Positions 3,413 through 46,756 of a stretch of DNA of 64,000 bases are shown in pieces; position 1 is the stretch's first letter; every line of letters begins with the position of its first letter. This DNA comes from Nymphaea colorata (Eukaryota > Streptophyta > Magnoliopsida > Nymphaeales > Nymphaeaceae): NCBI RefSeq assembly GCF_008831285.2, contig NC_045139.1:27498808-27562807 (forward strand). The letters are read 5' to 3'. Under the pieces are notes generated by a model. It saw only the letters and a program-made list of their open reading frames with translations. It was not told the DNA's origin and did not search any database. A program made the position numbers and the translations under genes.

Positions 3413-3448
3413 CTGTGAATAGACCCAAAGTCCATCCTTTGAGTGTCC

Positions 3449-8942: not shown

Positions 8943-10328
8943 CTAAGGGCAGAAGGTGATGGCATAGTTAGCGTCAGTGCAAGTAAAGGTGCTGCTCTTA
9001 TCATCATAAGCATGGCTGTATGCTTGTGGGCACTGGTGCTTGAAGAATTTAGAGTATTGAGTTGGTGGGCAAGTCTCCGGCGTAGAATGGGCTCCGGTGC
9101 AGCAGTACTCAGGTGTGTTGAATGCCAAGCATGCACTCCTGCAAGCCACTGTTGCGCCATGCGGCCCCACAACCTTCAATTCCGGCGGGCACGACGAATT
9201 TATGTCGACCGGGCATACGGCCGCGCTGCACCTGCTTGTGCCACTGCTCGGCGCGACGGAGACGGGCAGGTTGAACCCATCCACGCAGCTAACGTCATAG
9301 AAGTCCTGTGCACCACCTGAACCAAATGTGAACTCCACTAGCGTGGCAGGAGCCACCGCGCCCGCGCCACTGCATGCAACGCTGCCCGTGACACAGTCGC
9401 CGGTCACGCACTTGAATTTTCCAGACGAGTCAGCGGTGCACTGAGTGCGGGCCCAGAATCGGCCCGACCATGAGGGTGGTGCGTCTAGTGTCATAGTCGC
9501 CCCTTCAGCCAGCTTGAACCCAGTGGCGGATAGGGCTGGGGAGCCGCCACCTGCTAGTGTGCCCGGCCAGACCGTGAAAGGGCAATTGTTCTTGAAAGTC
9601 AATGTGGCCGAGTGGATACCTGTACAAAGTCAAAGTCAAAGAAGGGCCAACGTCATGGCGAATTCACTTGGGAAGAAGGTGCATTCTTTTTCTACCCATC
9701 AACTCACGGCTCTCCTCCATGCTTGAGATCCCTTCACATCTTTAATAAAGATATTGCTTAAAATAAATTGTGTACAATTTTGCGTGATATAAGTTCTTCT
9801 GAAGTTTTTTAAATCTACAGTTAGACAGAACTTCGCATTTAATGTGAACTCCAAGTCGGAGCATACCCGTAAACACCTCATAATTTTTTTATGTAAAATA
9901 AACTGAGCGAAAGAAATTTTGGTTTTAGATCATCAAGGTCATGTACGTAGAGATATCTTTTAGAAAATTGTGTAGCTTAAACTTACATAAAGTTCTTTTT
10001 ACGGCAAACCACTGACTTAGTTTTTGGGGTCACAACATCCCCTCTCTTATAGACATATTATCACATGTAGGCATGCTACTAAAACACAACTCTCTTTGTT
10101 TCATTTCTCATGAAATTAACGTTATCTTTAACATTCAATAAATTAACAAAAGCATGCTGTTAGTACATGCATAAAGCAGGTTATATATATACATATACAG
10201 GATCTTTAGATTTCTCTCATTCATGTTGGGACAGAAAAATCCTTCGGCCTTTCACAATACACAGCACTTCAACCGGCTAATGTAATGTTCCAGATTGGAC
10301 AGAGCTTTGGATAAATGGACAAGTTCAT

Positions 10329-10528: not shown

Positions 10529-12799
10529 GCTGCCATGAAGGGCCACTTGGATTGTTACAACTATACGTGTCGATTGATTCTAACTGTTTATGTGACACTA
10601 ATCACCCGATTGCTTTACCAAATTGGAGCTGAAGATAGTGTACGTAATGACAAGAGATTTGTTCATAAAGGTTCATCCTATCGTATATGTGTCCTAAAAA
10701 GAATGTTAGGACACAAAGATCGTTCCCCTCATCCAACAATGCTAAGCAAGCCTAAGGTAAGAGGTGGATATGAGTTGCTAATTAAGTAAATTAAAGGATG
10801 AATCCGATTAGATGTCATTTATTAAATCCAAACCAAATTTGATTTTTTAATCAAATATTAAAATTTTTCTATATCCGAATTTTCAAAATAGTTCCATCGG
10901 ATATTGGATGCAAATCAGACATATAAACGTCCCTACCCAAACAGCTTTATGAAAACATTGTTTTTTGATTGTCATCTACATGCCTTTTAAAATTGTTTAT
11001 AAAGTGTTTGTTGTTGAGTCTGATGACTTGACCCTTTGAAAAATGAAAGCAGTACTCATAGTCATGGCTAAGTTACGTTCTATTTTTCCATATCGATCAT
11101 ATGTATTTATTTTGTGTCCAAATTCGAGGTTGAATAAACGGGTCGACACAGGTGAAAGAACACACACACATATATATAACCATTCATGAATCCCTGGAAT
11201 GGGTTTCTCATGGGTAGGGATTGGTAGGGCCTCAGAGAAAGCAGTAGGCATGCAAGCCCTTCAGATTTGAGTTGGATGCAGCCTTTACCTGGTTCAACTA
11301 ATTGGATTTGGATTCAAACTCACCTTTGGACTGACCTTTTGAGAAGCAAACCTAAATCCAACCAGGGGTCTGGAGTCACATGTGGGCATGTGCGGGCAAT
11401 TGCCTGCATGGTCCCATAAAATTTTTTTATTTACATATTGGTTGTCCCTAAAATTTTGCATATTTATATATAACATGCCTCTCAAGCATATGGCGAGTGC
11501 CCCTTCACCAAATATGTCTGGCTCTGCCACTAGATCCAACTAACATCAGAACCGACATTCATATATAATGTGCTTAAATCTTTATCCAGTCCCAGTCAGG
11601 TTTCATTCTCATGCGATGGAACTATATATCGAATTCAAACCTGATTAATTACCAGATTGAAACTATTTTTACCGGATCCAGGTAAACAAATTTGAAATTA
11701 GGTCTGTAATCAGTTATACCTGACCCGTTTACATCTTACAAAGGAGCGTTGGTGTGAAATCGAATGAGCAGTAGCCAATAGGTTTTTCTACCACTACCCC
11801 CTATAGGAGGACTATGCTTTCCTTGCACAAGAGAGAGAGAGAGAGAGTATGCAAAGATTCACTTGTTGTATTATTAGAATTAGGAAGTTTAACTAGTCAA
11901 TTTTACACCATGAAACACTAACTAATTTCCTTTAAATTTCAGATAAGATAGGAGCCTCCATTGCATCAGGAACATTCTACTATCCACTAACTAGTGCTGG
12001 CCGGTATGGGGTTGTTTAGCAGCAAGAACACATTCTGTGAGTATTCTATGAATTTCTAGATTCACGAAACACAACCCCAAGGTATCCTTGGCGCAGAATT
12101 ATTCAGGAGGCCCCTCACATATTCTACAAAATCATTACTTTAAATGAATGTGTATTTTTTGTCGATCAAGCTTTAAGATATAATTTGCATACCTTTTCCA
12201 AAAAAGAAAAAAGAAGAAAATGCAGTTTGCTTGTATTTTCATGTAATTATGACGGCATAATTTTAAAATACCAAAAAAATATTTTGCAATTTTACCAATT
12301 TTTAGCACCTGAAAAATCATGCATGCTTTCCTGTTCATGATAACCCACTGTTATTAACGATTGAATTAATCACGACGAATGAATAGAGTAAAATGTTTTG
12401 TTACAGCAAAGCGGGTTACATGTATATTTATGAAAGATCACGGTTTAGGGGAATTCGTCATCAAATTTACAAGAGAGCAAATAACAAGATTTACATAAAA
12501 GATCTGCCCCCACTAGGTCATAAGCCATGTTCGATCCTCCTAATAAAGGCAATGGTTAGAGGAACTTATTTTCAACATTTACAACAAAATGGATCCATTT
12601 TCCAGAAGATATAAAAACGTTGGAAAATAATGCTTAAACATTAGTCTTCGTTCAATAAATGTTTTTGAAGCTTTTCTGGCCCGCATCCATATCCCATTGA
12701 AGGTGTTTGATTACTTCAAATAAAATCAGAAGTTAGCTAGGTGATCTGAGATCTTAGGCTCTTAGATCTCACAATGTCAAATCCTGAACTTTTAGTAAA
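10529..12799. other. upstream region of the thaumatin-like gene, no gene found
   Basis: 10670-10790 (TCCTATCG to GAGTTGCTAATTAAG) is repeated in diverged form upstream of the second exon-1 copy at about 13640-13800, so it is ancestral promoter sequence. 11380-11540 contains a phrase ending TCTGGCTCTGCCACTA, resembling a common dispersed plant repeat. A (GA)n run lies at 11829-11848. The short open frames have no recognised similarity. Confidence 0.5.
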
Positions 12800-13386
12800 T
12801 ATCTTAAATCCTTTGTTTGATAATTAAACGCATGGACTACAATATGAATTTGTCGTATTTGCATCGTTAAGTCAATTCGTGGATCTTAAGTGAAACTTCT
12901 TCTTCTCTCACTAGAAATCCAAAGAATGATAAAGATCTTAAACTTGTAAAACTCTATTTACAGTTTACTAGAACTATGAATTTAATGTGAACTCAATGGT
13001 AGGCCACACCCTTAAAAATAAGATCCACTGTAGCCAAACACCACAGAATACGTACAGCTTTAAGTAAAAGTAACTGATATTGACAGAATTTTGATTTTTA
13101 CTCATGATGAAGGTCGTGTTACATACGTAATAGAGTTATTTTTGACAAATATAGCTCAAACTTAAAATTTCTCTTTTAAGATTAAATCACTCACATATAT
13201 TTTGGAGCCACAACGGCCCTCTCTCTCATGCTGACATGTTGACAGACATGGGCTTGCGTTTTCTTGAAAAACAACTCTCTATCTTGTTAAATGTTTGATC
13301 TTCAGCACTTCAATGAGGAGATTTATTCAAAAAGTTGTCATTATGTACATATATAGTTATCAGTTATCAAGGATCTCTAAGCCAAA

Positions 13387-13445
<59 letters not shown>

Positions 13446-13560
13446 CTGCAATGAAGAGCAAAGCGAAAGAAGCAACCAGCAATCCAGCCATTGATGCGCC
13501 TTTGTATAGACACCACGGAGGGTCACTTGGATTCTTTAACACCAAATCTATTGCTTCCTA
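12800..13560 (-). pseudogene. thaumatin-like copy 2: promoter, exon 1 and intron only
   Basis: Minus-strand paralogue of the first exon and intron of the gene at 8943-10461. Exon 1 (13446-13491) reads MAGLLVASFALLFIA, similar to MAPLLVAAFTVLFIA. The intron matches through blocks such as TTTAATGTGAACTC (about 12975), AAACTTAAAATTTCTC (13155) and AACTCTCTATCTTGTTAAATG (13272). It has lost one G at the donor (GCAGTCTC instead of GCAGGTTTC), which shifts the splice phase, and no exon 2 lies at lower coordinates. It cannot make a thaumatin-like protein. Confidence 0.8.
13387..13445. repeat. (CA)n(TA)n(GA)n microsatellite
   Basis: About 20 bp CA, 21 bp TA and 18 bp GA, adjoining exon 1 of thaumatin-like copy 2 at the same place as the microsatellite of the intact gene. 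Confidence 0.95.
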
Positions 13561-14053
13561 ATACACTAGGTTCATATACCAAATTATTGGATTTGAAGAT
13601 AGTGTGGACAATGATTTAAGAATTTTTTTCCTAGAGATGCTGACCTTATTAGCTATATATTTTTGTATTCAACCATCCCATCTTAAGTTTTTCAAATTCA
13701 ACGTTTTCCTTTTAAATGTTTGGAGACATCCAGCCGATCTCATCCCAAAATGTCAACATTGCTCAAGATAGGAGGTCGATATGTATTTGCTAATTGAGAA
13801 AAAGAACGCGAACTTCACTCTTATTTATACCACATATATATATATATACGTAGATGAGTTTTTCTTTTTGAACCTTTAACTTTTTAAGAGAGCTAGCCTA
13901 TGGAAGAACTGACCACTCAGATGAAAAGCCTAGTATGTCCAATAACTTAGAAAACGATAAACATTATTTTTTTAGAAGTGCAACTAGAATTTTATAAGAC
14001 CAACGGATAGGTAATCGATCTTAAAACTGCTTATTAAGTTTTTCATTGTTCAA
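13561..14053. other. duplicated promoter flank
   Basis: 13640-13800 resembles 10670-10790 upstream of the intact gene. The rest is AT-rich with a short (TA)n run at 13836-13850. No gene seen. Confidence 0.5.
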
Positions 14054-14341
14054 TTTCAAAAGTCGATGGGAACTGAACAAAAGAATCTCAACTGCGATAA
14101 AACACCAAACAGTGAGTGAATTGAACTTAATCGATTCTCATTAATTCAATTACAGATTTTATTGTATAGGGTGTTACAAGATCAAGATAAGATTCCACAT
14201 AGATTGAGACATACAAATTTTGAAATTGAGTCTTGTCTTTCCTCAAGCTACTCCTGAATGATCTTTGATAGATCTTGAAATAGCGAGCTGCGATAATGAT
14301 CATCTTCCTTAACACGGCCTGCCAATCTCAGCGGGCAATGG

Positions 14342-14797
14342 TGTAACACCCCAGAAATTTAGTCCCGTATCGAAGACTATGAGAGAACTTCAAGGGCTTA
14401 TAAACGGGAATCATTAATGAGATGATTGCCCTGGTTTTTAGCCTTTTTGATGCTGGAACTGAAACTACTAGGGGGCGCGTTGGGATCCGCCAAACCAGGG
14501 GCCCGAGCCCAAGAGTGGGTCATGTTGTTACAGTGGTATCAGAGCAGTTTCAACACTCGAACCTAAGGTCCCTCACACGCGGATGCGTGTGCCTCAAGAG
14601 GGGTGGATTGTAACACCCCAAAAATTATCTCGTATCGAAGATTATGAGAGATCTTCAAGGACTTATAAAAGGGGATCATTAATGAGATGATTGTCCTGGT
14701 TTTTAGCGTTTTTGAGGCTGGAGCCAAAACTGCTAGGGGGTGATTTGGGATCCGCCAAACTAAGGGTCCGAGCCCAATAGTGAGTCAGGTTGTTACC
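14342..14797 (+). mobile_element. complete TRIM (terminal-repeat retrotransposon in miniature)
   Basis: A 456-bp non-coding LTR element. The left LTR is 14342-14532 (191 bp, TGTAACACCCC to TGTTACA) and the right LTR is 14609-14797 (189 bp, ending TGTTACC). The 76-bp interior starts with a primer-binding site TGGTATCAGAGC (14534-14545) and ends with a purine-rich tract AAGAGGGGTGGAT (14596-14608). The element is flanked by a perfect 5-bp target duplication AATGG (14337-14341 and 14798-14802). The LTRs differ at roughly a dozen or more positions, so the insertion is not very recent. It needs enzymes from other elements to move. Confidence 0.95.
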
Positions 14798-14802
14798 AAT
14801 GG

Positions 14803-15660
14803 AGAATGCCCAGATCGTGTCTAAACTCCTAAAATGCACTAGTAGTCAAGGGCTTTGTTAATCTATTAGTGATTTTCTCTTTTGAGCCAGCAAACTGAAT
14901 TTCAATATGACCTTTCTTCACATGGTCTCTCACAAAGTGAAAGAGATTGACTTCCACATGTTTAGTTCAAGCATTAAAAAATGGGCTTGTTGCTAGATCA
15001 AGAGCTCCTATTGGTGTTTTGTTAGGTGAGAACCCCAGCTCGTTTAAAACTGTTTGGACCCAAAGAGGTTAGCAGGACATGCATATTGTAGAGCACCTAC
15101 AACGCTCCTATAGAAGCTTGCATCTCTATAGAAATCCCTTCTCTTTATGATTTCATGCTGGAACTCATGGGAATGGTGGTAGCCTTAGCCAATTCCATCT
15201 TGGCTCGTTTCAGAAGATTGACCAATTAATTTTTCTGCCCAAAAAATATTTTGTCTTCCTTATACATCCGTGCCTAAGAAATAGGTCAATCGGCCCAAAT
15301 CATTGATTGAAAATGAACTTCTAGCTGGTTTATAATTTTGCAACTGCCAAGTCCTCTTATCACTAGAATATCATTTACATACACAAGAATGTAAGTATTT
15401 GATGTACTACAGACAAATAAAGATGGATCTGACTGAAAAACATTAAACCCTTGACTTTGAGAAATTCACTGAGTCAAGTGTACCACACACGAGGGGTTTG
15501 TTTAAGTCTGTATATGGCCTTCACCAGCTTACATACATGGTTTGAATATTTAGTATCTTCACATCCATACGGTTGAGTCATACACACTTCCTGGGTTAGC
15601 ATCCCATTGAGTATGACAACACCAAAATCTAGTTGCCTTATGTTCCGAAGTGGGCGGCAA
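14803..15660 (-). pseudogene. copia reverse transcriptase and RNase H (element B)
   Basis: Decayed minus-strand copia domains. Near 14880-15080 are RNase H pieces with KHVEV, HFVRDHVKKGHIEIQF and GFSPNKT-like blocks. Near 15365-15395 is the reverse transcriptase box YILVYVNDILV (family YVDD, here YVND). Near 15490-15620 are YRLKQ and ATLNGMLTQEVCMTQP-like blocks. Many frameshifts and stops. It ends at the N-terminal side of reverse transcriptase. Confidence 0.8.
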
Positions 15661-16134
15661 TGGACATTAGGATTTGCATGGTGGTCGGTTTTCTAATTGA
15701 ACTGAAACTTAATAAAATGACCCTTAATGTAGCAATCACACATGCCTACATTTGCACATCAACATACACTCACAAACCAATTTTTTATGCATTTGATGAT
15801 ATTGTTATTGAATATGAACTTGCAATTACCAGTTACCACCATTGGCAATTCAGTGAATTAAGATCAAAGACTTCCATCAATTAGCTAGTCTTTGTTATAA
15901 CAACTTTTTTTTTTTATTTGATGATATTGTTATTGAATATGATCTTTCAATCACCACCAACAAAGATGCACATTCTAAAGATGGCTCAGGAGTCTGGTAA
16001 GGAGGGATCAGCCGATTAGGGTTGGTGACACATATGGAAGAAAACTTAGCATACATTCCCTATAGAAGATCTGCTGTTACCATCACAAAACGGTAGTTCA
16101 AAATATTCTACTGTCACCATCATAAAATCATACT
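15661..16134. other. unassigned; contains a 27-bp direct repeat
   Basis: An exact 27-bp repeat starting ATTTGATGATATTGTTATTG occurs at 15791-15817 and 15916-15942. No coding similarity was recognised. It may be intron of the PP2C fragment that follows on the minus strand. Confidence 0.5.
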
Positions 16135-16639
16135 TCCGAATAATGCAATATGCGGCAATATTGGCCAATATCTTTTCCATCACGGCATATAATAGCACAA
16201 GAGTCACCAACATTTGGAACAAGCAAACGATCTCCAACAAGAACAGCAGTTGATGCTGTCGAGCCCCCATCTCTGTGCTGACTATTCTCTAACTTCAGAA
16301 AATCAGGATATGTCTGGTTGTATCTGCAGGAGCCAAATAAAGTATAACTATACGAGCAACCAAATATAGGGCTGCACAACGAGTCGAGCCAACTCGGGCT
16401 CGACTCGAACTCACTCGAGAAAGCTCGGCTCGAGCTCGACTCATTTATAAATGAGTTGAGTTCGAGCTCACACTTAAACTCGAAACTATAAATGAGTCGA
16501 GTTTCTAATTGCAAGAACTCGAATCATTTAAACTCGACTCGACTCGTTATTTAACTAAATCATATAAACCTGTTCCTCAAACCGGTTCAGTGGTTTAGGA
16601 TTAAAACTGTTTACTGAGTTCCAACATATATGTACGTCT

Positions 16640-16975
16640 TTATCTTCTGTCTTTCAAACTAATCTCTCTCTTCCGTCTGCTCTTTCTTTTCTCGACTTCT
16701 CATCTACCCTCTTTCGTCGACCACAACGACCAGACGAGAGACGCAATGCTTTGCCTTTGGTCTTTCGTGTTCCGTCTCTAGTCTCTTCCGTCTACCATCT
16801 TCCTTCCCGTCTGGCGTCTTCCCTCTTCCATCAACCACATGACTACCTTTTTAGGCTCTTCACCTGCTCACTGCCACATGGCCTGCACAAGCAAGGCAGC
16901 ATCACCATCCGGCATCCTGCATCCAGCCATAGGCCACCGGCCCACCGGCATTCTGGAGGTAAGATCGAGTGCTTT
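16640..16975 (+). other. possible captured 5' exon inside the hAT
   Basis: A pyrimidine-rich stretch (TCTTCCGTCT repeats, 16650-16850) followed by more balanced sequence that ends in CTGGAG|GTAAGATC at about 16959-16966, a good plant donor site. It looks like a 5' UTR or first exon that could splice to the HIRA exon at 17220. The frame from the ATG at 16878 would not continue into the HIRA frame. This is inference only. Confidence 0.3.
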
Positions 16976-17219
16976 GGTTTCTGTTTTTGCTGTTTTATGA
17001 GCTGCATTTGGGAGGAGGAAGTGTTTATAAGCGCCGAATATTGTCTTTTATGTTCCTGCTATATTCCTGTATCCTGCTATTTAGTTGATGTCATTGATTA
17101 ATGGCTTTGTCTCTATGGTGATCTTGTTAGCAATGTGTGTACAATATAGATAGTCTAGAGACTCCCTACTTAACAACATCAGATTCTGATATCTATATGA
17201 TATGAAATGATTGTTACAG

Positions 17220-19838
17220 GACTTTGACCGATGATGGTGTGCAGACCAGGGCACATCTGGAAGCACAACTTGCATCTTCCTTAGCTTTGAAATCACCTAA
17301 TGAGTATCGCCAATGCCTCCTCTTCTATATCCGATTTCTTGCCAGGTTATTACATTGTTATATTTTTATATTTTGAATGTTTCTTTTCATGTAAAGGTAA
17401 ACCTTTTTTCCTGCATTAGATCATCTGGTGGTTGTTTTTATTATCCTTTCCTAGTCACTCTTACCAAATTGGTACTCTCAAATTTCTGTGTAACTACCCA
17501 AGGATGTTATTGATACTTCTAACTATCTTTGCTGATATCTTACTGCAGGATTAAAATGAATTTCGTCCTGACAAAGCTACTTGTGCCATGGTCCCCTTCA
17601 CATGTCCATGATTCTTTTTTTTTTTAAAAAAAGAAAAATAGATTGCTGGAGGACAAGTGGTTGGATGATTGTTTTTCTCAAGGGATGTGCTTATATTTTC
17701 TAAGATCAGAGCATAATTATTTGTTGATCAGAAGATGGTAACGAAAGAATATCGTGTAGCTTGGTTTAACTTTATATTTTCTTAATGCTTTTGTTATGGC
17801 CTCATTCATTATTTTGTTTTTGTTCTAGGTTCTCTCATCATTAAAATCAGGTGACACTTTTTTCACTTTTCATCACAATAAGCTGTCATTTCATGAAGTT
17901 CCAGTTTTCCACTAGTAATTATCCTTCAATTTCATGACATAGTCTGCCCTTTGGAAAAAGGAGGCTGGGGGTGGGACGTTTAGTTGATAATAGATGATGA
18001 AATTGTTAAAAATTGTTTTTTTCACTAATCAAGTGTTACTTTTGTTGACTATGATATCTTCTGTGTTAGAAAATGAAATAAAAGTGTGAGCTATTTATTA
18101 GTGATATACAGGAATGCAATGTCCATGCACTTATCTAGACAAAGTGATGATTCATGATCACTTAAAAGGGCTGCTGAAAAAGCCATCATCGAAGCAGTAT
18201 TTATCAACCAAATCCTGCCAATCTGGAAACTGTCAAGTTCATTTGATAGAATTGTCACTGAATTGGCAATTCAACTGAGAAGGCTATAAACTGATGAATC
18301 TCTTTAGTTTGATGGAAGTCCTCACTGAATTCAGGAATAAATGAGGGGATAATCTTACCCATGAATTTTATATAGGTATATGTGGAAGTGACTGCATTAT
18401 TAAATTGACTACACATATTACGTCATTTACTGGTCAAGTGACAATCCTTCATCTCATTTCACTGATTAGCAGCTCATGCTTACTGTTCGCCCTAAAAATA
18501 ACTAGAATGCAGGGCTTGGCTTGTCTGGTTCTTCAATGATTTTCTTTTTGTTTGCATGATAGGGTCCTATAAATTAGTTCTCTCCTTATAACAGTGGTGG
18601 ATATCATATTCTTCTACTTTGGCTCAACGCACTCCAGAATTGGGGCTTGAATATCTTTATGTTAGTCATTCTCCAACATTTTGCTATCCGGCAAGCTGAA
18701 TTTGCTTAGCTTCTTCAATAAAAGTAGTGAAAAACAGACTCCAACTCTCTGTCTCATTTGTTATGGGTTTTTGATATCACAATGGCTCGATAAAAATATT
18801 AACAGGAAAGGTAACAAAACAACTCTACCTTATGAGACTGGTTCATCCGGTACATGTTAAAATCTGCTTGACGAGGTGCTGATGGTCGATCTGACTCTGA
18901 TAATTTCTTGTTTCTGTCATTTTATTGTTCAGAGAAGAATTTGGCTTTGTAGGTACCAAATTTTAAAGCCGGTCTGGCATCCACGAAAGTAATTTATCCA
19001 GATGTATCAAAGATGGTCATTTATGATCCAAGACTAAAACCTGGTATGGACATATTGTCAATTTGATGTCATTTATGTGAATCAATGCAGCATAGTGAGT
19101 ATTTGTGCAACCTTGCTCATTCTTGTTTGTGGTCAACAAAATTTTAAGCTATTTGCTGAAAAGTTATATTCTGCTGCATAATCCATAACATTAATGTGAA
19201 ATTATCTCTTTCACTGTTTCACAATGTTAATACATTGTGCTATTCTTGATTTTGTTACAAGAGAATTGCTTTTCTAACAGAAAGAGAAAAAGTTTGGGGA
19301 ACGTTTTGCAGTTCTTTTGTTTATGTTATTTTTTTTTTGTTTTCAAACAGGGAAGCAGATGAGTCATGCTTGAGAGAAATTTCTTGGTCCTCCCACTAGC
19401 ATGGTTGATTCTGCTTCTATACTGCAAAACCCTGCATGGGATCCTGTTGTGCTTGTAAAACATCATTCACCAATATTTCTGTTTGTGTGTCTCCTATCAA
19501 ACATGTTCATGCATGTGCACACGTGGCAAGGCACTCACAGACACATATAGGCACACATGAATAGGTGTAGACATGCACATGTATTCAACAGGATGCAAGT
19601 TTTCTAGAACCAGAGCCTACCACTTGTTTTGATGCTTTTGCTGTTGTGAATGAAGGGAATGAAAAAGCCCAAACTCCTTAGAGAAGACATCCTTCCAGCA
19701 ATGGCATCAAGCAAAAAAGTGCAGCGACTTCTCAATGAGTTGATGGATCTGCTGTCCGAGTATTACAACAATGCCAAGGAGACAAACACTGAGCAGGGAG
19801 ATTCAGTGCTTTCTAAGCATGAATCTGCAAATTTTTGA
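17220..19838 (+). pseudogene. HIRA: HIRA histone chaperone, last three exons, captured
   Basis: C-terminal end of plant HIRA, the WD-repeat chaperone that deposits histone H3.3. Exon a is 17220-17345 ([20 protein letters not shown], then [10 protein letters not shown]). Exon b is 19351-19454 (EADESCLRE, then FLGPPTSMVDSAS and NPAWDPVVL). Exon c is 19656-19838 ([20 protein letters not shown], then [15 protein letters not shown], ending at TGA). Splice sites are consensus (ACAG/GTTATT, AACAG/GTAAAA, GAAG), and phases join correctly across both introns. A short deletion in exon b, after CLRE, shifts the frame. Retained introns show capture at DNA level, not retroposition. The WD repeats and Hira core are absent. 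Confidence 0.85.
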
Positions 19839-19938
19839 GTATGCTGCATTTGTGCTCTCTAAATCCATTTCCAAACTAACATATTTACCCTTGCTTCCCA
19901 TTGTAATATGGCTGAAGAAACTACAAATTGAGCATCAG

Positions 19939-20102
19939 GTAATTTGCAATGTGAGCCAAAAAAGCAAGCTAAACGAGTTATAATTTGCAATGTGAGCCAT
20001 AAAAGCAAGCTAAACGAGTTATAATTTGCAATGTGAACCAAAAAACAAGCTAAACGAGCTATAATTTGCAATTTGAACCAAAAAACAAGCTAAACGAGTT
20101 AA
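19939..20102. repeat. about 41-bp subterminal tandem repeat, four copies
   Basis: Four units of the type TAATTTGCAATGTGARCCA followed by AAAAAGCAAGCTAAACGAGT. They sit inside the right arm of the hAT element and pass into shorter CGAGTTAAA repeats. Subterminal repeats of this kind are transposase-binding sites in studied hAT elements; here that is inference. Confidence 0.85.
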
Positions 20103-20777
20103 ATGCCTAAATGAGTTAAAACGAGCAAGTTAAACGAGTTAAATGCCCAAACGAGTTAAAACGAGCGAAACGAGTTAATTAGTTAAATGAGTTGATGACT
20201 AATGAGTTAATTGAGCTAAACGAGTCGAGCTCGAGCTCGACTTTGTGTAGTCGAGTTGAGCTCCAGGTTGTTATAAGAAGCTCGGCTCGAGTTCGAGCCG
20301 AGCTCGAGCTCAAGTATTTTTAGCTGAGTCGAGCTCGAGCTGGCCAAGCTCGGGCTTGGCTCGGCTCGTGTGCAGCCTAACCAAATACAGCTTTTAGACA
20401 ATAGTAAATTTGCAATTAAAATCAAAAGCATGAGCACCTCTGGCTGCTTTAGTATTGCTGATGAACTCCGATGTTTGATCAAGGTTCTAGATTCTACTTT
20501 ATGTACTCAGCTGCTTGTGCACCACTATGCCCTGAAATATGCACATATATAAATTAATGCAGAATCCTTTGGGGATGTTGGATAGAAAATTTCCGATGAC
20601 TTAATTTGAAAATCAGCAAAATCGAGAGTCACTAGCATATAAAACCTGTACAAGAAAAATGAAAAGGTTCAGCTGAATAAAGATGAATAGACTAAACACA
20701 AATAGGCTAACTCTGTTTGCTATAATTTTTCATAATCGAAGTAAAAACTTTAAAAGAGAAAGCAGTTGCAAACTCAC

Positions 20778-20962
20778 TTTGTGGTTAGGCTTCAGATACT
20801 TTACTATACATTTTGCTTCAAATAAAAATGCATCACTGTCAGGCTGTCAGCAATTATGCAAGCATCAACATGACCATCAGTACTGTTCAACTGCGCACAA
20901 AGAACTTCTGCTTCAGATATTGCCTTGATAATAGGTATTCCCAATAGCAGTTCAAGCACTTC
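20778..20962 (-). pseudogene. XPG/GEN1-like structure-specific nuclease, one exon
   Basis: One minus-strand exon of an XPG-family nuclease, most like plant GEN1 (Holliday-junction/flap nuclease). It begins after ACCATAG at 20962 and ends CACAAA|GTGAGT at 20778. It reads VLELLLGIPIIKAISEAEVL, CAQLNSTDGHVDACIIADS, then, in a shifted frame, SDAFLFEAKCIVKYLKPNHK. The acidic EAE and DSD residues of the XPG-I active site are visible. An 8-bp duplication at 20836-20851 breaks the frame exactly at ADS/DA. Neighbouring exons were not found. It lies on the same strand as, and upstream of, the PP2C fragment. Confidence 0.78.
20836..20851. other. 8-bp duplication resembling a hAT excision footprint
   Basis: The plus strand reads CTGTCAGG followed by CTGTCAGC. 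The undisrupted XPG motif needs only one copy. The last base of the first copy is the complement of the expected C. A duplicated 8-mer with a junction base changed to its complement is the classic footprint left when a hAT element excises. Confidence 0.6.
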
Positions 20963-21639
20963 CTATGGTCATAATTACCACAAACAGAAAACATGTCATC
21001 AAATGAACCCATTTGGATATCTCTAGCTTGTGGAGTATCTATCACAACAGAAATAACAGTAAAATGTTAAAAGTCCAATAACTACAAGTTTCCAAATTAC
21101 AGATCTCTTCCACAGAAATCATGTTGCAATAAGTATGATTTATTAGTTATAATTTACAGCAGCTATGCTTTGGATAAAAAAAAACATTATCCACAATCAA
21201 ACTGCTATCCAAGCCACCAAAAAAGTATTGAATGTATAACAAATCAGCATGTTAAATTACACTAATCTGAAAATTTTAAGTATCTAAAATGTTGCCAAAA
21301 TAAATATTAACACATAAAGTCTTAATTTCAAGTTCCAACAAATAGCAAATCCTTCCAATGACATCTTGATGTTCATTGCTCTTTCACGCTATGCCTTCAT
21401 GAGACCTACAAAACAATGTAACAAATCATAATTACAAGAACTAATAAATTATACCATATATTATTTCAAAAATTTTAAAAACATAATAAACATACCAAAG
21501 ATGAATAAGAAGTTCAACTTGAATCATTCTAAAGATATATATCCACTTGATTAATCTTCAGTGTTGACCTGAAAGAAATATATATAGTCAATTAACAAAC
21601 AACTAATAAAATATTTCATGAAGACAATTTCTTCAAGAC
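20963..21639. other. unassigned, between GEN1-like exon and hAT transposase
   Basis: AT-rich. May hold intron of the GEN1-like fragment and the non-coding 3' arm of the hAT transposase. No motif recognised. Confidence 0.4.
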
Positions 21640-23760
21640 ACTTATTTTTGTTGACACTTCATGCATTCTATCACCATCATTCTTTACCCAATCATCCAAA
21701 CGAACCAAATCTTTCACCATTTTTGGTATAAATGATCTATGGCTATTATAAGAATCTGACCTCCTATACTAAAGCTTTTTCTGAGACAATAGAAGTGACT
21801 GAAATTAATAGATCACACACCATTTGTGAAAGAATTCAATACTTGGATTTGTTATCCTTCTATCATTGCAAAATATTAAAAGAATCGTTGCCATCATCAT
21901 TATCATCATCATCATGATTATTCTTAATCAATCTATCCTCTAAATATGTGTCTAGCTCAGACTTGGTAACCTGAAACATAACATTCTGAGCTTCTAATAG
22001 CTTAAAACACAACTTTCTTCCACCACGTAGTGCACTTCGACCTTAATTATTGGAAGAATTATTTGATATGGTACAAGTATTGACATACACTTCATTTCTT
22101 CTGACATAAGTTTTATAAACCTCTTGCAATGTTTGTTTTATTATTTCCAGTTGTTTTGTCTTTTCTTCTATTGATTGAATTTTTTTTCAGAAGATAAATT
22201 CTGATAATGAGAGTTTTATGTTTGGATATAATATAGATGCAATGATTATTAACAAGTTATAGGATTTCAAATATTTATCGAAAATTTCTTTCATTTTCAG
22301 TGTCATTGCCTTCATAAATCCATCTTCATTTTCAACCTTTTTCCTATAATATTCTTTGAACTCTTCAGATTTCAAGCAAAAATAAGTTTGTTTTTGCATA
22401 TGAAGAGTCAAAGAATAAGATGAAGACATCATGAAAAACCTAAAGAAAATCACATATCAATGCTATTGTTTCCCAATTCTCAAGTCCAAGCAACCATATA
22501 AATTCTGGGTCTTTCATGGTATATCTTTCAAAAGCATTTTTATAAAAAAAATATGTAGAATTCTATTGAGTGGACACATCTAACACCAGTTTCTTTGTAG
22601 TTGAAATTTTCAATTCTCTTGCTCTAGTCGCAACACCATGTAGTGTTGATGGTAAAACTTTGATATACTTCACTGCATCTAACGCTAATGATTTTATCTT
22701 TAATGACACCTAACCCATCTTGCACCATCAGATTCAAAATATGTGCACAACATCGTACATGAAAAAATTTACCTTCATAGTACAAGTTGATGTCATTTTT
22801 TTTTTGTGTTCTCCTTTAATTTTCTAACAAGAACATCATTCAATGAAGCATCGTCAACTGTAATAGATAATAATTTCTTTTTAGTATCTCAATTCACAAG
22901 ATGCTTAGCAATTACATTTGCTAAGGTCAACCTAGTATGAGGTTGTTCAACTTCAGTAAAGTTGATGGCATGTTGTTACATATTTCACCCTTTATCAATG
23001 AAATAGACTGTTAATGACATATATCCCAGCTGTTGATTGGATGTCCATATATCGGTAGTAAAAAACAATCTTATCAACACCCTTCAAAACTTCTTTCAAT
23101 TAATTTTTTGTCTTCATACAAATTTATTACATCTCAACAATAGTCATTCTTGAACCTGGCACCCACTTAGAGAAACCAAGCTTAAAAAGGAACCTAAACC
23201 AACACTTATCCACTATGGAAAAAACATGCTCTTTAGTTTCCATTAATTTTGTGATTATCTCTCTTATTGATTGAGTGTTGATGTCGGGACCCATTTCAAT
23301 CAGCATCTTTGTGACATCTAAAGATGAGGTCTCTCCTAATTTAAAACTTAGAACCTTTTTTATTTTTGCTAGCAAAACATGTTAAACATTTGTGTCTTCT
23401 CATTGATGATGTAGATCCACTTGTACTTATCATAAATAATGTACTATAGTACTTGCATTTCTTCTTTTTTTTCACACAATGTATATAATTACCTCTTCAA
23501 AATCATTCCATACTATAGAAGTCTATGCCCTAGATCTCTTTGCATCGTCTACGAGTACTTCATGAGCATCTATTGAAACTCCTTAATTTTTGTGCTTGCA
23601 AATCTATAGGAGTTTCATTAGAAGAATGTGCTCCAATAGGTAAATCATCTGAACTTTGTCCCAAATCACATACTTGTTTACCCTTTTCAATGATATTTCT
23701 TTCTAAATTCATCATCTTCAAACCAGTAGGTTTTCTTCCTTCCACTCAATCTATCTCCTA
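21640..23760 (-). pseudogene. hAT transposase (BED/RICESLEEPER type), decayed
   Basis: A near full-length hAT transposase in pieces on the minus strand. About 23440-23560 is BED-finger-like (NDFEE.I..CVKKKEEMQ region). 23127-23375 includes FSIVDKCWFRFLFKLGFSKW. About 22980-23070 has DIWTSNQQLGYMSLTV-like sequence across frames. 22560-22780 has AVKYIKVLPSTL and RARELKISTTKKLVLDVSTQ. 22450-22530 has KDPEFIWL and WETIALICDFL. 22187-22453 has the KNEDGFMKAMTLKMKEIF block. 21780-21880 has the hATC dimerisation block YWKDNKSKYWILSQMVCDLL. Many stops and frameshifts; a dead source element. Its own termini were not identified. Confidence 0.88.
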
Positions 23761-24773
23761 TTTGAACATAAATTTTTGTTAAACTAAGCAAAAGAATTGG
23801 ACATGAGTTAAGTTGCCATTAATCTACATGCAAAACTTGTATTATATCCTAACAATATATGAAAAATACTTATGTTGAGAAGCATGACTTAAGATACCAT
23901 TAATCTATGGTTTCAAATCAAACCAGCTTTGAGCCCGAAGTAGAATGCTATCATGTAACATGACTCACCAAAACTACACATAGAACAAGAGTGATTTATC
24001 TAGAAGTTATGTAGATAAGAGAATGCAAAAGAAATAGGCATGTGGAAGTAGACTGGAGATTAAAGAATGAAAGTTGTCATTTATGTACATGCAAAAGTTG
24101 CATTTAATTATATTAAGAGAACCCTACAATGTCGAACGTCAGGTCACCAATCAGCAAGCTAGGAACTCGGGAGAACCTAGGATGCACAAGTAAAACTTCT
24201 AGGGCCAGTTGCCCAAAATGAGATCACAAGTAATATGAACATCAAGCTTTTAATTATTTGAAGGATTCTATAATTTGGTTTTAGTATAGGCAATTAGTGC
24301 ACATGCAATTTAGCTAACATCACAACAAGCTTCTATCATCTAAATCATGTCTCAGCAACTGGACCTATTATATTAACTAAAGGAATAAGCTAAAAGTAGA
24401 AAATGCATCCAAAAACATATCAACCACTGTGTTTGGTCCTAGTATGATAAAACTACAAGCAAAACTTGCATAAGCACAACAATGTAAACACATGAATAAG
24501 CTTTGATTTTGGCATTGATCTATTAAATCCACAAGGAGGCACTTCCGAAGCCATCCGCCATTGGGGATCCAAAACTTTCGAAGTTCAATGGGAACTTGTG
24601 TAGTGTATGTTGTTTGTTGAAGACATAGAAAAGGGACCTCGGCTACTGAGGCCGAGGTAGGGAGAGGATGCTCACCAACATCAACTATTTGGCTACAAGA
24701 TACAGCCTACCACTACCTAGTGGTAGTACTCATAGGCCACAGGCCCACATCAGAGAGAAAATCAAGAAAGAGG

Positions 24774-24817
<44 letters not shown>

Positions 24818-24856
24818 AGAGCTAGGAAGAGGTATGACCATGGTCTGCACACTGAT
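23761..24856. other. no gene; (GA)n tract
   Basis: AT-rich non-coding DNA. A (GA)n run lies at about 24780-24813, just outside the LTR that follows. Short open frames across the run are artefacts. Confidence 0.5.
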
Positions 24857-25221
24857 TGTTGGATATACAAGGAGCAGAAATGCACCTTCGATTAGCTCAT
24901 CTTCAACGCAGCACGATCCCCGGCAACGACTACCAGGTGACAGACTTCACCAACAACAATAACAGAGAAAGAAGAAGAAAATAGAGATAGATTAGATTTA
25001 CGAGTTTGCTTCTGAGAGGCGCAGCTAGGTCAATCGATGATCAACCTTGAGTATAAGATAAGCTGGGCTTTTATAGACCACCTCCTAGGGTTTCCCAATG
25101 TCTGGCAACCGTTACGGTCAGAGGAATTTGTGGGCATTTTTCTTATTTAATCTTGTAACTGCAAGTGGGTCCGCTTGCAGTTACAAGATGTAAAGATAGG
25201 GCTTAGGGCCACTATCCAACA
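24857..25221 (-). mobile_element. 3' LTR of copia element C
   Basis: About 365 bp. On the plus strand it begins TGTTGGATATAC and ends CACTATCCAACA, so it has inverted TGTTGGAT/ATCCAACA ends. It is followed on the plus strand by TCTCCCACTTGGCC, whose complement is a purine-rich tract next to the 3' LTR. It is the same family as the LTR at 2945-3412. Confidence 0.75.
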
Positions 25222-28200
25222 TCTCCCACTTGGCCATGAGACCGTCAGATTGCTTCCACTATTTGTAGGTTTTCTTAATTCTTAGTTATGTGGTTTTTCA
25301 TAATTGGTTTGTCCATCGTAACTTGAATTTTATTCAAGGTTTGTAGCGAGGTTTTTCTTTTAGGGGTTTTCCATCGCAACCTTTCAAGTATTCAATATGT
25401 TTCACCTTAGTTACGAGGTTTTCTTCATGTACAAGTATTTTCATCGTAACATGTTAAAACTTAGTCCCATGTGAACCACAAACATTACATAAAAATCATC
25501 AAGAATTCTCTTGATAATAATGCTAGCAATCAAGTAAGCATTTGAAATATACATATATATTCTCTTCTTATTCAATAATGAAATCAACCTGGATACTTTT
25601 CAACCACCTCACAAAGAGGCAAACCAAGATGTTCTTAGCCCCATACGGGCTACATACTTAGTAAATAAATCATTAGGGATTCCTTTTGTTAAAATGCTAG
25701 CAATTAATTATATGAATATATCTTTTATTTCATTCATATATCTGAAAACATTTAACTGCCTTAAAACAAGGCCAACCTGGACTTTCTTAATGTATACTGA
25801 CAAGTCAAATTAAAAAACTTGTATCAAGTCCAGCACACAAACTAATATATATAGAAAGCAAAGGGTATATTTTCCTTTTATTGTTTTCCACAATTACTTA
25901 ACTCCTTTAACAACAGAGGTTCCAAAACATTCATTATAAATTGATGCAATACATAATCATATGACAAAACACATATTTGTTTTCCAACAAAGCAAAAGGT
26001 ATATTTAAGTGTGCTCCCACTTTACAAATGTTTACATAGTCATCAATTTGATTAGCAATACGCCTAATCTTTGTTATGACTATTTAAAAGAATGAGCAAT
26101 TAATTCATAGTCTATCATACAAGTACTTTTCATCTTCTACAGTCTTTATTAATGTACCCTTTCATAGAAAGAATTTCATTTAACTCATCATTCATATAAT
26201 AATTTTCATAACCAAATATTTAAATCATAACAAGCAAATAAATCACTTACTGTCATATCAGATTTGTCAAGCATTTCATAAAGCTCAACACATAGTTCCA
26301 CTACCAAATGCATAGAGCAACAATTCAAGTATCGTCATTCAAGTATTCCACAAGATGATCATTGAGATCACTAATAAGCTTCAGGCCGTTCATTACCAAA
26401 TTGATTATTAGTTGGTTCATTACCTAACTGCTTATTAACATATCCAATCGATCAAATTTGATAATCAAATGAATCATTATATTTGTACTATTGGAATAAT
26501 TCCATCTCATGCAACAAAGAAAAACATCATATACCGTACTTTTATTTTGGTATCCAATATATATGTATTTGCAAACATATCGTTGCATTTTTAAATATGC
26601 ATTTAACATGCATTATAGATCTCCAAAGATCTCAATATGGATTTAATTACTAAGGATCTCATTATATTTATGAGTATTATTTTACACCTCATGGAAAATA
26701 TTAAAATCAAATTCATTCTCAAACAAGAACTTGCTTATTAGCATGCTAGCATAGTTTGATCCACAAATGAACAAATAACATAATATACTTGGATTTAATA
26801 TAAACAAGATATGAAAGTTTAACCATATATCCAAATATATATATTCAAATTTGAATCAAAGCTATATGTAAGGTGGATCTCAAACAATAAATAGATATAA
26901 TTCCAAAAGCTACATGAATATAAAAATTCAGATTATATTAGCATAGGTCCAAACTAGTAATATCCACAATATCATTAATATGAATTTAAAACACATGGTC
27001 CTCATTGAAATATTATACAACACGATTCAACAACCATATTTGGATCAATGCTAACCCATCTCTCTTTTGAGAAAATCAAGTTATCATGTACTAGCACTTT
27101 AGTGCCATAAAACTTTAAATAATGCATTCTTGCCAATATGAATTTTAGTTCAAGAGTATTATATTACATCTCTTGAGCATTCATTAAAAACAAATTCTTT
27201 TTCCTAAGAAAGAGAAGCAAATAAATCTTTATTCAATAGTTGTCTAGAATGATCTTTGGATCTAGCACGACAACAAATATTACAATATGATCAGATTCAA
27301 AAGCAAACATGATAACATATATTGGAAACAAAGCAAACAAGATGTGATTTTTTTTTCACATATCCAAACAGGTCAATTTAAATATGAATTCATATCTGCT
27401 AGCCATATCTAATAAGAGCAAATAAAATTTCGTACTAGAACTTATAGTACAATAGATCCAAAAAAATATTTCATTAAAATGTCTTTCATCATGTTTAAAA
27501 GTTTTACCTTACAACTGCAGGCAAAAGGCAAACATGATGATATATTGGATTCAATGTAAGTGCGGGTATTTGGAGCCAATGATCCAAGCAAGTTAACTTA
27601 GATACAAATCTATCATGAACCGAGTACAATGCTATATGGATCGCACCATGTCTAAGAGTGTTGATTTACACCTCTTAGCATACCAACATACTAATATAAT
27701 CATTCCTTTTAACTATGATAAACATACAATAATGTAATCTTTGTCTTAGAATATTCTTTCATAAGGAGCAAAAAAAATTTGTCTTTTAGCACTCTAGAAC
27801 TACTCACTCAGAAATTATTGAACTCGTAAAATTATTAGATCTAAAAATCAATGCATATCATAATTTGTTTAGATCTAATATAAACAAGATCTTGATCTTC
27901 AAAAAAAAGTGCAAACGAGTCAAATCAGGTCATGCTAAAAGAAGTGCAACGTTTATCGTGAGAATCAAATGCAAAGCCAAATAGATATATAAAACAAAAT
28001 TCTGGTCATAACTAATATCAGCATGGAGCCAAATGACCACAAATATCCATAAAACATGCATAATAGCATATATTTGAACCAATATAACTAGGATATCGAT
28101 TTTTAACAATGTCAAAACAAATTCAGATCTTCAAGAGTATAAGGTTCGACATACATGGATCTAATCTCACCAACATCCAACCATACAATATATATGGGTG

Positions 28201-28660
28201 TGCAACATGTAGAGATTCAAAATATAAAGTGGATAATAATCAGATCCAAAACCAAAAAAGTTCATGGCATCCACATCATAACAATCACAGATCTAGATAT
28301 AATAATACCCACAATATAACGAATATTGATTTGAACAAGAAAAACCATATTTCACTTCAAATAGTATAGACCTTGATTCAACAAAAACATTCAAATCATA
28401 ACTAGAATTCTAGTTAGTAAAAAGAGATTGACATTCCTTATCAATTTTATTTCATTGTGTTCATTTTTCTTTATATCAACACATCCAGATCCAACACCAT
28501 TTCAATTCTCTTCAAGTCAAGGCCATAGGACATACTATGATGTCTGTTTCGCAAGATGCAGTGACACATTTACTCATCACATTTTAAATTCACTAAGTTT
28601 ATCAAAAATGTATCACATAAAAGTGAAGATTGACCTTCTTTTGGAAAGCATTTAAAAGAA
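25222..28660 (-). mobile_element. copia element C, heavily eroded internal region
   Basis: Minus-strand copia remnant next to its 3' LTR. Only faint family landmarks remain: AGGCCAACCTGGA (about 25775), parallel to AGGCCAACCAAGA at 440 in element A, and the repeated GGTTCATTACCTAA linker at about 26376-26440, parallel to 1573-1695. No open domain survives. Beyond about 26640 the sequence is AT-rich and repetitive. Confidence 0.5.
26640..28660. repeat. AT-rich stretch with degenerate long-period repeats
   Basis: Recurring phrases such as GGATTTAATATAAACAAGAT, GAGTRTTRATTTACACCTC, TTTGGATCAATG and GCAAACATGATRA return roughly every 300-400 bp in imperfect order. No coding similarity. By eye this is a decayed tandem array or repeated transposon leader; the unit could not be defined. 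Confidence 0.4.
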
Positions 28661-29875
28661 TAAAAATATTATTGATTTTACATGCACAAATCTATGCCGA
28701 TAGGAGCACCATTATTTGTTGCACTAATTTTCATACTCCTTCATTTTATGTGCAAGTACACGTAAAATAACAAAATTGCATAAGCATATATATATTTGTT
28801 GCTAACCATTTTTTGGTCTTGGGCAGTTTTGAGGCTCCCACTTTTGAAGTCATTTCTAAATTAATTTCATTGCAAGTAAACAACAATAATACATGGAAAG
28901 CAACAAGGAAAACTCAATATTGAATTTTAGACCGTGAGTTTCCCTTCTCATTTTCAAAGTTATTGTTGGAACTTCTGCAATTTTAATAAGCTTGAGTGGT
29001 ACCTATATGCAATTGCACATAAAATCTCTTTTTTCCGCCAAAATTACAAAATAATTTTCTGAAACCCTCTTTCAGCAATTTTTAATAACTTTGAGGGTAT
29101 CACTACGTAATTTCATATAAAATTCTAGGTTTTCACCGAAATTCACTTTCGCAAGCCTCTTTCTGATAAAGTTCTTACCAAAAACGTTGCGGCATTAATA
29201 TTTGCAAAATATGATAGCGTTCTTGAAAATTATGCGAAATTGGTGGCTAAATCTATAATTTTCAAACTTTTGGTATAAATTCGATTTGTAATCGAGTTTT
29301 TCATCTTTTTTCGTCTATTTTTTCTCTCTCTCATGAGAGCTCCTCTCTCCTCTCGCGAACACCTTTCTTCTTGGGTTTCTTCCCTCGCGCCCTTTCCACC
29401 GTTGTTGTGCGAACCACCACTGCCGCAACTATGAGGAAGGCGTCCTCCTTTGCTCCCACCGCAAGGAAGATGCCCATAGCTGCAGCAAACGAGCAGCAGA
29501 TTTGCGTCCTTGGTCTTTGTTGGAAAAGAAGCAGTGGGGAATCTCCGGTTGTGACAGAAGAAAAAAATGGAGAAGGCTCCTCCTCTGATTTTTAGTTTTG
29601 TTCATCTCTGTTCGTCGCTTAATCTCTCCTTTCTTTTTAACATTTCTCCTCTTTCTCTACTAGTGCTGCAGTGGTCGTTCTCGGTAACCGGCAACCACTA
29701 TGCATTGACAAATCAGCAGACAAAATTCTGATGCCTAAGTTCCAAGAAGCAGCAAGCTATTGGAATGAAGAGAGGTGGATGGCGAACCTCCCATTCTCTG
29801 GTTTGCCATTGAGGGTTTAAATTCACATTGAGGAAACAAGGAGGTTCCTGGGGCTTGCAATGTCTATATGTGCCA
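28661..29875. other. unassigned; AT-rich then GC-rich leader-like block
   Basis: 28661-29290 is AT-rich. 29290-29680 is richer in GC with a 74-codon plus-strand frame at 29371 (arginine/alanine-rich, no recognised domain). AATTCTGATGCCTA near 29726-29739 weakly resembles a reversed copia primer-binding site (CTCTGATACCA) and could mark the 5' end of element C. Confidence 0.35.
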
Positions 29876-30349
29876 TGTTGGGATTTCTCCCCATAACGCA
29901 TATACAAAACCAAACGTATATACCCTAAACAGGATCATGCTCATGCTAAATCATTGAAATAAACGAAACCTTAAATTGAACCGGAAGCGTACCTGAATCC
30001 ATCTGAACTGGTGCACGGGAAGATCGCAGCAGAGTCTTCCAGGGTACGTGCGGCGCGCTTGAGGTCTCTCTCAGATAGGGAAGAGGAAAACCCTAGAAAC
30101 CAATGTTTCTGGCAACCCTTGCACGACCCCAGGGACCACTACCATTATATAATGAGGACAATTATGGATTCAACCCATCAAAGATTCCGTAATTCCGTAC
30201 TGGTATCTATACATTTTAAAATTACCTCATACCATCTAAAATGACGTAATATCCCAAAACGCAATCACTTAAGTGGATATTTACGTTAAGACAGCCATAA
30301 TGTCTGAAATTTCTCATAGACATATGCCGGCCCACCAAATGATCTTACA
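29876..30349 (-). mobile_element. 3' LTR of copia element D
   Basis: 474 bp, TGTTGGGATTTC to GATCTTACA on the plus strand. Its first about 155 bp match 35413-35567 with only a few differences. The 5 bp outside it are TGCCA; the matching outer flank at the other end is lost. Confidence 0.85.
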
Positions 30350-30811: not shown

Positions 30812-32110
30812 TTAAACCCTTGGTAAGCGGATCCGCAAATCATAGAGTTTGTCCCAATATGCTCTAAAGACACCTGACCATTCTGTATCCCCTCTTTTAC
30901 AGCCCAAAAACTTAATGTCGATGTGCTTCGACTTTGACAAACTGTGGCTGTTATAAGAGTACATGACTGCTGAATTATTGTCACACAACAACCTTAGTGG
31001 TCTTTCTATACCACACATAATGCGCAGCCTCGTGACAAAATTCTGCAATCACAAAACCTGATTGAATGCCATTATCTTGGCACCTAGCAAAGTCAGAATC
31101 TGAATACCTAATGATCTCCCACTGGTCTGACTTCCTGTATGTGAGCATAAAATCTTATGTTCTTTTTAAGTACCTCAAAACTCTTTTGGCTGCTTTCCAA
31201 TGACCCATACCAGGATCACTTAAGTATCTGCCTAACATTCCAATGATAAATGCAATATCCAAACGAGTACAAACCAGAACATACATAAGGCTTCCCACAA
31301 CAGACAAATAGGGAATCATTTCCATTTCTTTAGATTCGATTTTACTTTTAGGGCACTGTTTGAGACTAAACTTGTCTTCTTTAGCAACTGGAGTCTTTCA
31401 TGGTTTACAATCCTTCATGTCATATCGCTGAAGCACCTTATCAATGTAGGCCTTTTGTGATGATCCAAGAATACCCCGAGAACGATCTCGAAATATTTAG
31501 ATCCCCAATACAAAAGATGCACAACCAAGATCCTTCATGTCAAACGTTGTTGACAAAAATTTCTTAGTTTCATGCAATATGACCACATCATTACTTGCCA
31601 ACAATATATCATCGACATATAAAACCAGAAAGATAAATTTGCCCTCACTGAACTTTTGGTATACACATTCATCAACCATATTAATTTCGAAACCAAATGA
31701 AACTATAACTTGATGAAGTTTGTAATACCATTGACTGGAAAACTTGCTTTAGCCCATAGATGGATTTCTTGAGTTTGCAGACCATTTTCTTTGCATCACC
31801 TAAAGCAAAGCTTTCTGGTTGCACCATATATATCATTTCATCAATGTTTCCATTTAGAAACGCTGTTTTAACATCCATCTAATGCAGCTCTAAGTCAAAA
31901 TGAGTTACAAGTGCCATTATAGTCCTGAAAGAGTCTTTCAACGAAACTAGAGAGAAAGTCTCTGTATAATCAATGCATTCCTTTTGAGTAAAGCCCTTAG
32001 CGACAAGATGTATTTTATACCTTTCAATGTTACCTAATGAATCCCTCTTGGTTTTAAATATCCATTTACAACCAATGAGTTTCACACCTTCAGGCAAAGG
32101 AACAACTTCT
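30812..32110 (-). pseudogene. copia RNase H and reverse transcriptase (element D)
   Basis: 31879-32097 reads VKLIGCKWIFKTKRDSLGNI and YKIHLVAKGFTQKECIDY. 31681-31878 reads MDVKTAFLNGNIDEMIYMVQ and CKLKKSIYGLKQ. 31497-31679 reads LVLYVDDILLASND, with the catalytic YVDD box intact. 30812-31048 holds RNase H with LRLLCDNNSAVMYS and KSKHIDIKFLGCK. Stops and frameshifts separate the blocks. This is the best-preserved copia RT in the window. Confidence 0.92.
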
Positions 32111-33081
32111 CATACGTCATTGTCCATCATGGACTTGATTTCCTCATTCATGGCATCTATCCACTTAAGAGATTTAGAACTCTTTATTGCTTGCTGGAGG
32201 TTGACATGATTATCCTCCATTAAGCCCATATCAACATCATGTTCTTGGAGATAGACAAAATCATTTGAAATTGTATTTCTCCTCTTTTTAGTGGATCTTC
32301 TCAGTGGCACCTCTGCTTGATTTTCTTGAGGTTGTTGAGTTTGTTCTCCAGTAGGAAGATCGACATCATTACCTTCTTCTGAATAGAGTGGACTCAGGTC
32401 CCTCTTTAAAGGCAATGTGTTTAATCTAATCACCTCCCCAAACTCAATATCCTCAAAGAAATGACATTTTTCTTTCCAAAGAAAGACTTACTGAATAGAT
32501 TAAATAAAACTTATAACCCCTTAATGTTTGTTCATTTTCCCTTTATACATTCAGTGCAGACATTAAAGTTTGCAAAATCAAGGGACTCAAGAATTCCTTT
32601 TGACATAAGCCTTTATATTCTCTTTTCAGAGATATGTCCTAAGCGCCAATGCCACAACATAATAGAATTCTAATTTGCTAATTTTACTTTTAGTACCACT
32701 AGATGTAACATGCAAGATTTCATTATATGAAGCAACCATATCAAGCAAATAAAGGTTATCGCTACTAGACAAAGAACCAGTGAAATTCAAATTTGAATGC
32801 AGAAACTACTTAAATTTATTTCCTCCAAATGAACAATAATAACCAAACTTGTTCAATGAGGAAATAGGAACCAAATTCCATCTAAAAAACGGTACCACAT
32901 AAGTTTCTGTCAAATTCAAATAGCAACCAGTCTTTAACAATAACCAAAAATCTGCTATGGCTTCAACCTTCGCCTTCTTGTCATCGCCCACATAGATGAA
33001 TCTTTCAGCATCATTTGGCGTTCGACAATTTAGGCAGCCTTGCATAGACATTATGTGACTAGTAACAGCGAATCTACCCAC
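32110..33081 (-). pseudogene. copia protease, pre-integrase and linker (element D)
   Basis: 32806-33081 holds the protease and following region (TSHIMSMQGCLNCRTPNDAE, then VVPFFRWNLVPISSLNKFGY). About 32460-32690 reads MLWHWRLGHISEKRI with a C..CIKGK pair, the zinc-binding pre-integrase domain. 32110-32433 is the acidic linker that leads into reverse transcriptase (ending WIDAMNEEIKSMMDNDV). The DDE integrase core of about 250 residues that should lie between them is deleted. Confidence 0.85.
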
Positions 33082-35412: not shown

Positions 35413-35567
35413 TGTTGGGATTTCTCCCCATAACGCATATACAAAACCAAACGTATATACCCTAAACAGGATCATGCTCATGCTAAATCATTGAAATAAA
35501 TGAAACCTTAAACTGAAGCGGAAGCGTACCTGAATCCATCTGAACTGGTGCACGGGAAGATCGCAAC
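35413..35567 (-). mobile_element. truncated 5' LTR of copia element D
   Basis: 155 bp nearly identical to the start of 29876-30349, breaking off after AAGATCGCA. What follows is a GAGCTCGA-type hAT-end block. Confidence 0.85.

Positions 35568-46721: not shown

Positions 46722-46756
<35 letters not shown>

Follow-up and report, generated by a model that had tools for sequence, protein, structure and literature searches.

The stretch of DNA analysed here (hereafter the window) is 64,000 bp long, repeat-rich, apparently of plant origin and 36.5% G+C. At positions 16367–20379 it holds a complete hAT-type element of 4,013 bp that carries part of a HIRA gene, and we describe this element and its contents on the plus strand, following the orientation of the HIRA fragment. 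The 5′ terminal inverted repeat (TIR), TAGGGCTGCACA, occupies 16367–16378, and the 3′ TIR, the reverse complement of which is TAGGCTGCACA, occupies 20369–20379. The two differ by one nucleotide, in the form of one gap. hAT elements have short TIRs of the YARGG..TG type, and both ends fit this type. Immediately outside them, at 16359–16366 and 20380–20387, are two identical copies of the 8-bp target site duplication (TSD) ACCAAATA, a perfect duplication of the kind that accompanies hAT insertion.

The DNA next to both ends is rich in short repeats. The 5′ subterminal region (16367–16556) contains inverted repeats, and the 3′ subterminal region includes 40-bp tandem repeats (19940–20166). Counted together, CGAG and CTCG number 18 within the 190 bp at the 5′ end of the element and 28 within the 453 bp at its 3′ end, compared with six in its 3,370-bp interior and 147 in the 59,987 bp outside it. 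The last 453 bp also hold ten copies of AACGAG. Enriched subterminal motifs of this sort are a feature of hAT elements, and the CGAG/CTCG and AACGAG repeats near the two ends are probably binding sites for the transposase.

Similar sequence occurs elsewhere in the window. A second hAT-like end, at 4420–4526 (reverse complement TAGGGATGTACA), has CGAG/CTCG-rich subterminal DNA, and its alignment with the 3′ end of the element scores 48, whereas 200 simple letter shuffles reached at most 25. The 8 bp after this end, CCTCTTGG, recur at 3447 before TAGAG, and a similar stretch lies 44 bp on. As the two ends of a single element, the 4420–4526 end and the 3447 repeat are not convincing. A further CGAG/CTCG-rich patch, at 35560–35700, also looks like hAT subterminal DNA but has no obvious end.

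How much weight the ends and the duplication can bear was gauged against shuffled sequence. A scan of all 64 kb for one pattern of hAT-type ends (candidates: 67 five-prime and 91 three-prime, spaced 200–12,000 bp apart, with at most one mismatch in the TSD) returned a single pair, the element at 16367–20379, and thus no further hAT-type pair or copy with the same ends under that pattern in the window. Six of 100 dinucleotide shuffles contained a hAT-type pair whose TSD was exact, at a mean of 0.2 per shuffle, and pairs with up to one TSD mismatch averaged 1.02 per shuffle. A second test admitted inverted ends of any sequence, provided that the first 4 nt were equal, that there was at most one edit in 11/12 nt and that the TSD was exact, with low-complexity cases dropped. 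It found one pair in the window and at least one pair in 13 of 200 shuffles. The unfiltered version gave 3 in 40 shuffles, and AT microsatellites dominated its list for the window itself. Ungapped searches behave differently: because the two ends of the element differ by a gap, an ungapped TIR search misses it and lists 14 other pairs (11-nt ends, up to two mismatches, exact TSD). Of the 14 and 34 pairs listed in all by the ungapped searches for TIRs of any sequence, two and three, respectively, fall inside the element's own subterminal repeats. Since shuffled sequences also yield such pairs, ends and TSD alone amount to moderate evidence, suggestive of a hAT element and not decisive. The case is nevertheless strong, because the subterminal repeats add to them.

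Between the termini lie three exons assigned to HIRA. Exon A (17220–17345, 126 nt) has an open frame of 41 protein letters followed by (R). A GT–AG intron of 2,005 nt (17346–19350) separates it from exon B (19351–19454, 104 nt), and a second GT–AG intron of 201 nt (19455–19655) leads to exon C (19656–19838, 183 nt), which is open and includes a stop codon. Searched by itself against PDB, exon A hits Protein HIRA in entry 5yje (E 0.0012), its sole match at E up to 10. Together with the beginning of exon B it fits the Pfam family Hira (PF07569, E 2.3e-12) at profile positions 171–216 of 220. We identify exon A as HIRA on these two results. When the three exons are joined as a conceptual protein, residues 9–110 of the query align with 5yje at E 2.1e-10, and the three other matches have E values of at least 1.2. 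The late part of exon B together with exon C again ranks 5yje first, albeit at E 0.23, and exon C alone has no HIRA match in Pfam or PDB. The assignment of exons B and C to HIRA therefore rests on their order, splice phase and joined alignment. Because exon C has a stop codon and the match is C-terminal, exons A to C are taken to be the last three exons of the gene.

An initial annotation had proposed that these exons retain consensus splice sites and correct phases. The GT–AG introns and the splice phases do agree across all three, but the reading frame changes inside exon B and translation meets a stop shortly past the A–B junction, so that the joined frame is not open. Because exon B is frame-broken, the HIRA fragment is a pseudogene piece, and it is most likely now passenger sequence.

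At an E-value ceiling of 0.5, a six-frame Pfam scan of the whole element, with stops read as X, returned one family, Hira (E 1.1e-07). No transposase family appeared in that scan, and the element is therefore classed as non-autonomous. Host coding DNA between the termini, here the HIRA sequence, is a mark of Pack-TYPE elements, in this case of a Pack-hAT. The remaining internal sequence is less readily named. Up to about 16960, the stretch before exon A (16568–17219) is CT-rich and also relatively rich in GC; from there to the splice acceptor it resembles intron DNA. A 177-aa open frame within this stretch (16568–17098) has no Pfam match. In the first HIRA intron, an exon-like stretch of 91 nt (18953–19043) keeps an open frame between AG and GT. 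It may resemble plant CstF77. It matched nothing in PDB at E up to 10 and nothing in Pfam, and a literature search with one 7-letter piece found no paper. A search of positions 16000–20800 against Rfam at gathering thresholds was likewise without a match.

Continuation of the HIRA exons past the termini, which the initial annotation had named as grounds for overturning its reading, was not seen. Outside the element, tblastn across the window for a donor HIRA gene or a second copy gave matches of only 8 and 12 residues (E 2.0 and 4.4). On both sides there is instead sequence resembling a PP2C phosphatase gene on the minus strand. The exon adjoining the insertion (16173–16323) matches PF00481 (E 7.5e-08) and the Ser/Thr phosphatase of PDB entry 2i0o (E 8.6e-04). 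Across the element, at approximately 20438–20538, lies a frame-broken piece with stops that appears to come just before it in the PP2C domain. Taken alone the match of this second piece is weak, with a tblastn E value of 0.075 and no Pfam match for a 20-residue part of it. The reading is supported because joining the flanks with one copy of ACCAAATA restores an interval of 93 nt, with GT and AG ends, that separates the two PP2C-like pieces as an intron would. The element is thus inserted in an intron of a decayed, minus-strand PP2C-like gene. The restored intron is the pattern expected when a hAT element inserts into an intron, and serves here as a stand-in for comparison with an empty site.

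Other decayed sequences share the minus strand with the PP2C-like pieces. Beside them, at about 20780–20960, lies a frame-broken XPG_I/GEN1-like exon. Two of its pieces joined by XXX match PF00867 (E 7.6e-09) and GEN1 in PDB entry 5t9j (E 3.4e-06), and the first piece alone gives E 1.5e-05. Farther on, at about 21782–22363, is a decayed hAT transposase, with PF14372 at about 22106–22363 and PF05699 at about 21782–21958. We did not find termini belonging to this transposase. A search for inverted repeats between 12001–16366 and 20380–30000 did not delimit an outer element around the GEN1-like and PP2C-like mosaic. The search listed 15 matches; its nine highest-ranking were direct matches of 18–19 nt that resemble simple repeats (about 13427–13445 against about 24781–24814), and the other six were 13–17 nt long with E values of at least 0.13.

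The locus may be a mosaic built by successive elements. One form of this idea is nested capture, in which the hAT element with its HIRA and presumed CstF77-like pieces would sit inside a second element that carries the GEN1-like and PP2C-like pieces beside a hAT transposase. We hold this to be doubtful, albeit a serious possibility. If true, one transposon after another would have shuffled gene pieces into the mosaic seen at this locus.

The window contains several other features. RVT_2 (Copia-type) reverse transcriptase pieces lie on the minus strand at about 15447–15647 and 31383–31739, and a GAG-pre-integrase piece lies on the same strand at about 32535–32675. An open frame at 8946–9629, also on the minus strand, encodes a full-length thaumatin domain (PF00314, E 3.8e-81). 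Two pairs of very similar open frames, 44214–44501 with 48350–48637 and 46374–46766 with 50510–50797, have starts 4,136 bp apart, which suggests a direct duplication of roughly 4.1 kb.

Taken together, the Hira family match, the alignment with 5yje, the TIRs with their TSD, the subterminal repeats and the PP2C-like flanks uphold the central proposal of the initial annotation, namely that a hAT element took up a 3′ part of HIRA, with its introns, from genomic DNA. The termini, the perfect duplication, the subterminal repeats and the three proposed exons were all recovered where it had placed them. We are highly confident that the locus is a Pack-hAT of this kind, later inserted into the intron of a PP2C-like gene. 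Under this scenario, a non-autonomous hAT element would have copied the 3′ genomic piece of HIRA, introns included, between its ends. Because the introns are kept, capture probably took place at the level of DNA. The donor DNA might have been copied during repair of an excision gap, or neighbouring elements might have formed a hybrid. Excerpts of a maize Ds paper state that the mechanism of capture is not known, and mention a suggestion that replication goes wrong while excision breaks are being repaired (PMC3260210). For Pack-CACTA elements, part of a 2026 review describes the formation of hybrids between neighbours, and allows that other mechanisms may exist (PMC13317346). Once the element had formed, a hAT transposase encoded elsewhere could have mobilised it in trans by binding the subterminal repeats. 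Its landing in the intron of a PP2C-like gene or pseudogene would then have generated the 8-bp duplication.

Two rivals to the Pack-hAT reading deserve mention. The first holds that the locus is a chimeric expressed gene, in which a captured leader, the CstF77-like stretch and the HIRA exons are spliced into a new transcript that might also act antisense to the PP2C-like locus. Preserved GT–AG splice sites, open frames in exons A and C and the exon-like stretch in the first intron would all accord with such a gene, and a Pack-hAT is reported, in the portion of the maize Pack-TYPE study on which we draw, to have lengthened an exon of a maize gene (PMC8903248). However, the broken frame of exon B, with its stop soon after the A–B junction, and the decay of the host PP2C-like gene itself make this very unlikely. 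The second, in which the HIRA piece was at the locus first, brought by another element or a segmental duplication, and the hAT ends around it are coincidental or belong to a later composite of two hAT elements, could appeal to the 13 shuffles in 200 with comparable ends and to the related end near 4420–4526, which shows that the region has ends of this kind elsewhere too, but it has the slimmest chance of being correct, given CGAG/CTCG-rich DNA at both ends of the element, a TSD without a mismatch, and the GT–AG intron that appears between two PP2C-like pieces once the element is removed.

The Pack-hAT reading places the locus in a kind of which cases have been published. Capture of multi-exon fragments by hAT elements had been put forward in the initial annotation as much less often documented in plants than capture by MULEs and Helitrons. 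The available text of the maize Ds paper does call gene capture rare in hATs (PMC3260210), but published examples make the contrast weaker than was stated: Ds2-22 (PMC3260210), Hatvine-6 (PMC2528002) and the maize Pack-hATs (PMC8903248), as the excerpts of these papers present them. In the literature searched, no paper brought together HIRA, a hAT transposon and gene capture, which is not proof that none exists. What the present locus offers is a clean, single-locus case of an intron-retaining hAT capture, in which a single sequence shows both ends, the duplication and the likely splice structure before insertion. It is one more instance of a process of unsettled mechanism, and leaves existing knowledge unchanged.

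The closest parallels, going by the parts of these sources on which we rely, come from maize and grapevine. In maize Ds2-22, the cargo is exons 5 and 6 of an ILR1-like gene together with their intervening intron (PMC3260210). Like Ds2-22 and Ds-l4-354 of the Ac/Ds group, the present element has hAT ends, an 8-bp TSD and a captured gene fragment with intron sequence (PMC3260210). Unlike it, they have the 11-bp TIRs of Ac/Ds and captured ILR1-like3 and ZmMybst1 rather than HIRA, and in that study, though not here, the donor was located, a gene on another chromosome (PMC3260210). The Hatvine-6 elements of grapevine share a transposase coding sequence, whereas the present element yielded no transposase family, yet the variable region of Hatvine-6 frequently matches introns and exons of host genes, as does the interior described here (PMC2528002). 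The maize Pack-hATs form clusters of related elements from a genome-wide survey, in contrast to the one copy examined here; they too are non-autonomous hATs with coding DNA, and one of those reported is inserted in a gene, although introns are not mentioned for them in these excerpts (PMC8903248). The authors of that survey argue that all the main TIR superfamilies, hAT included, can form Pack-TYPE elements (PMC8903248). On the strength of these excerpts, maize and grapevine already provide documented cases of hAT elements with captured, intron-containing gene pieces, and the element described here is a further case.
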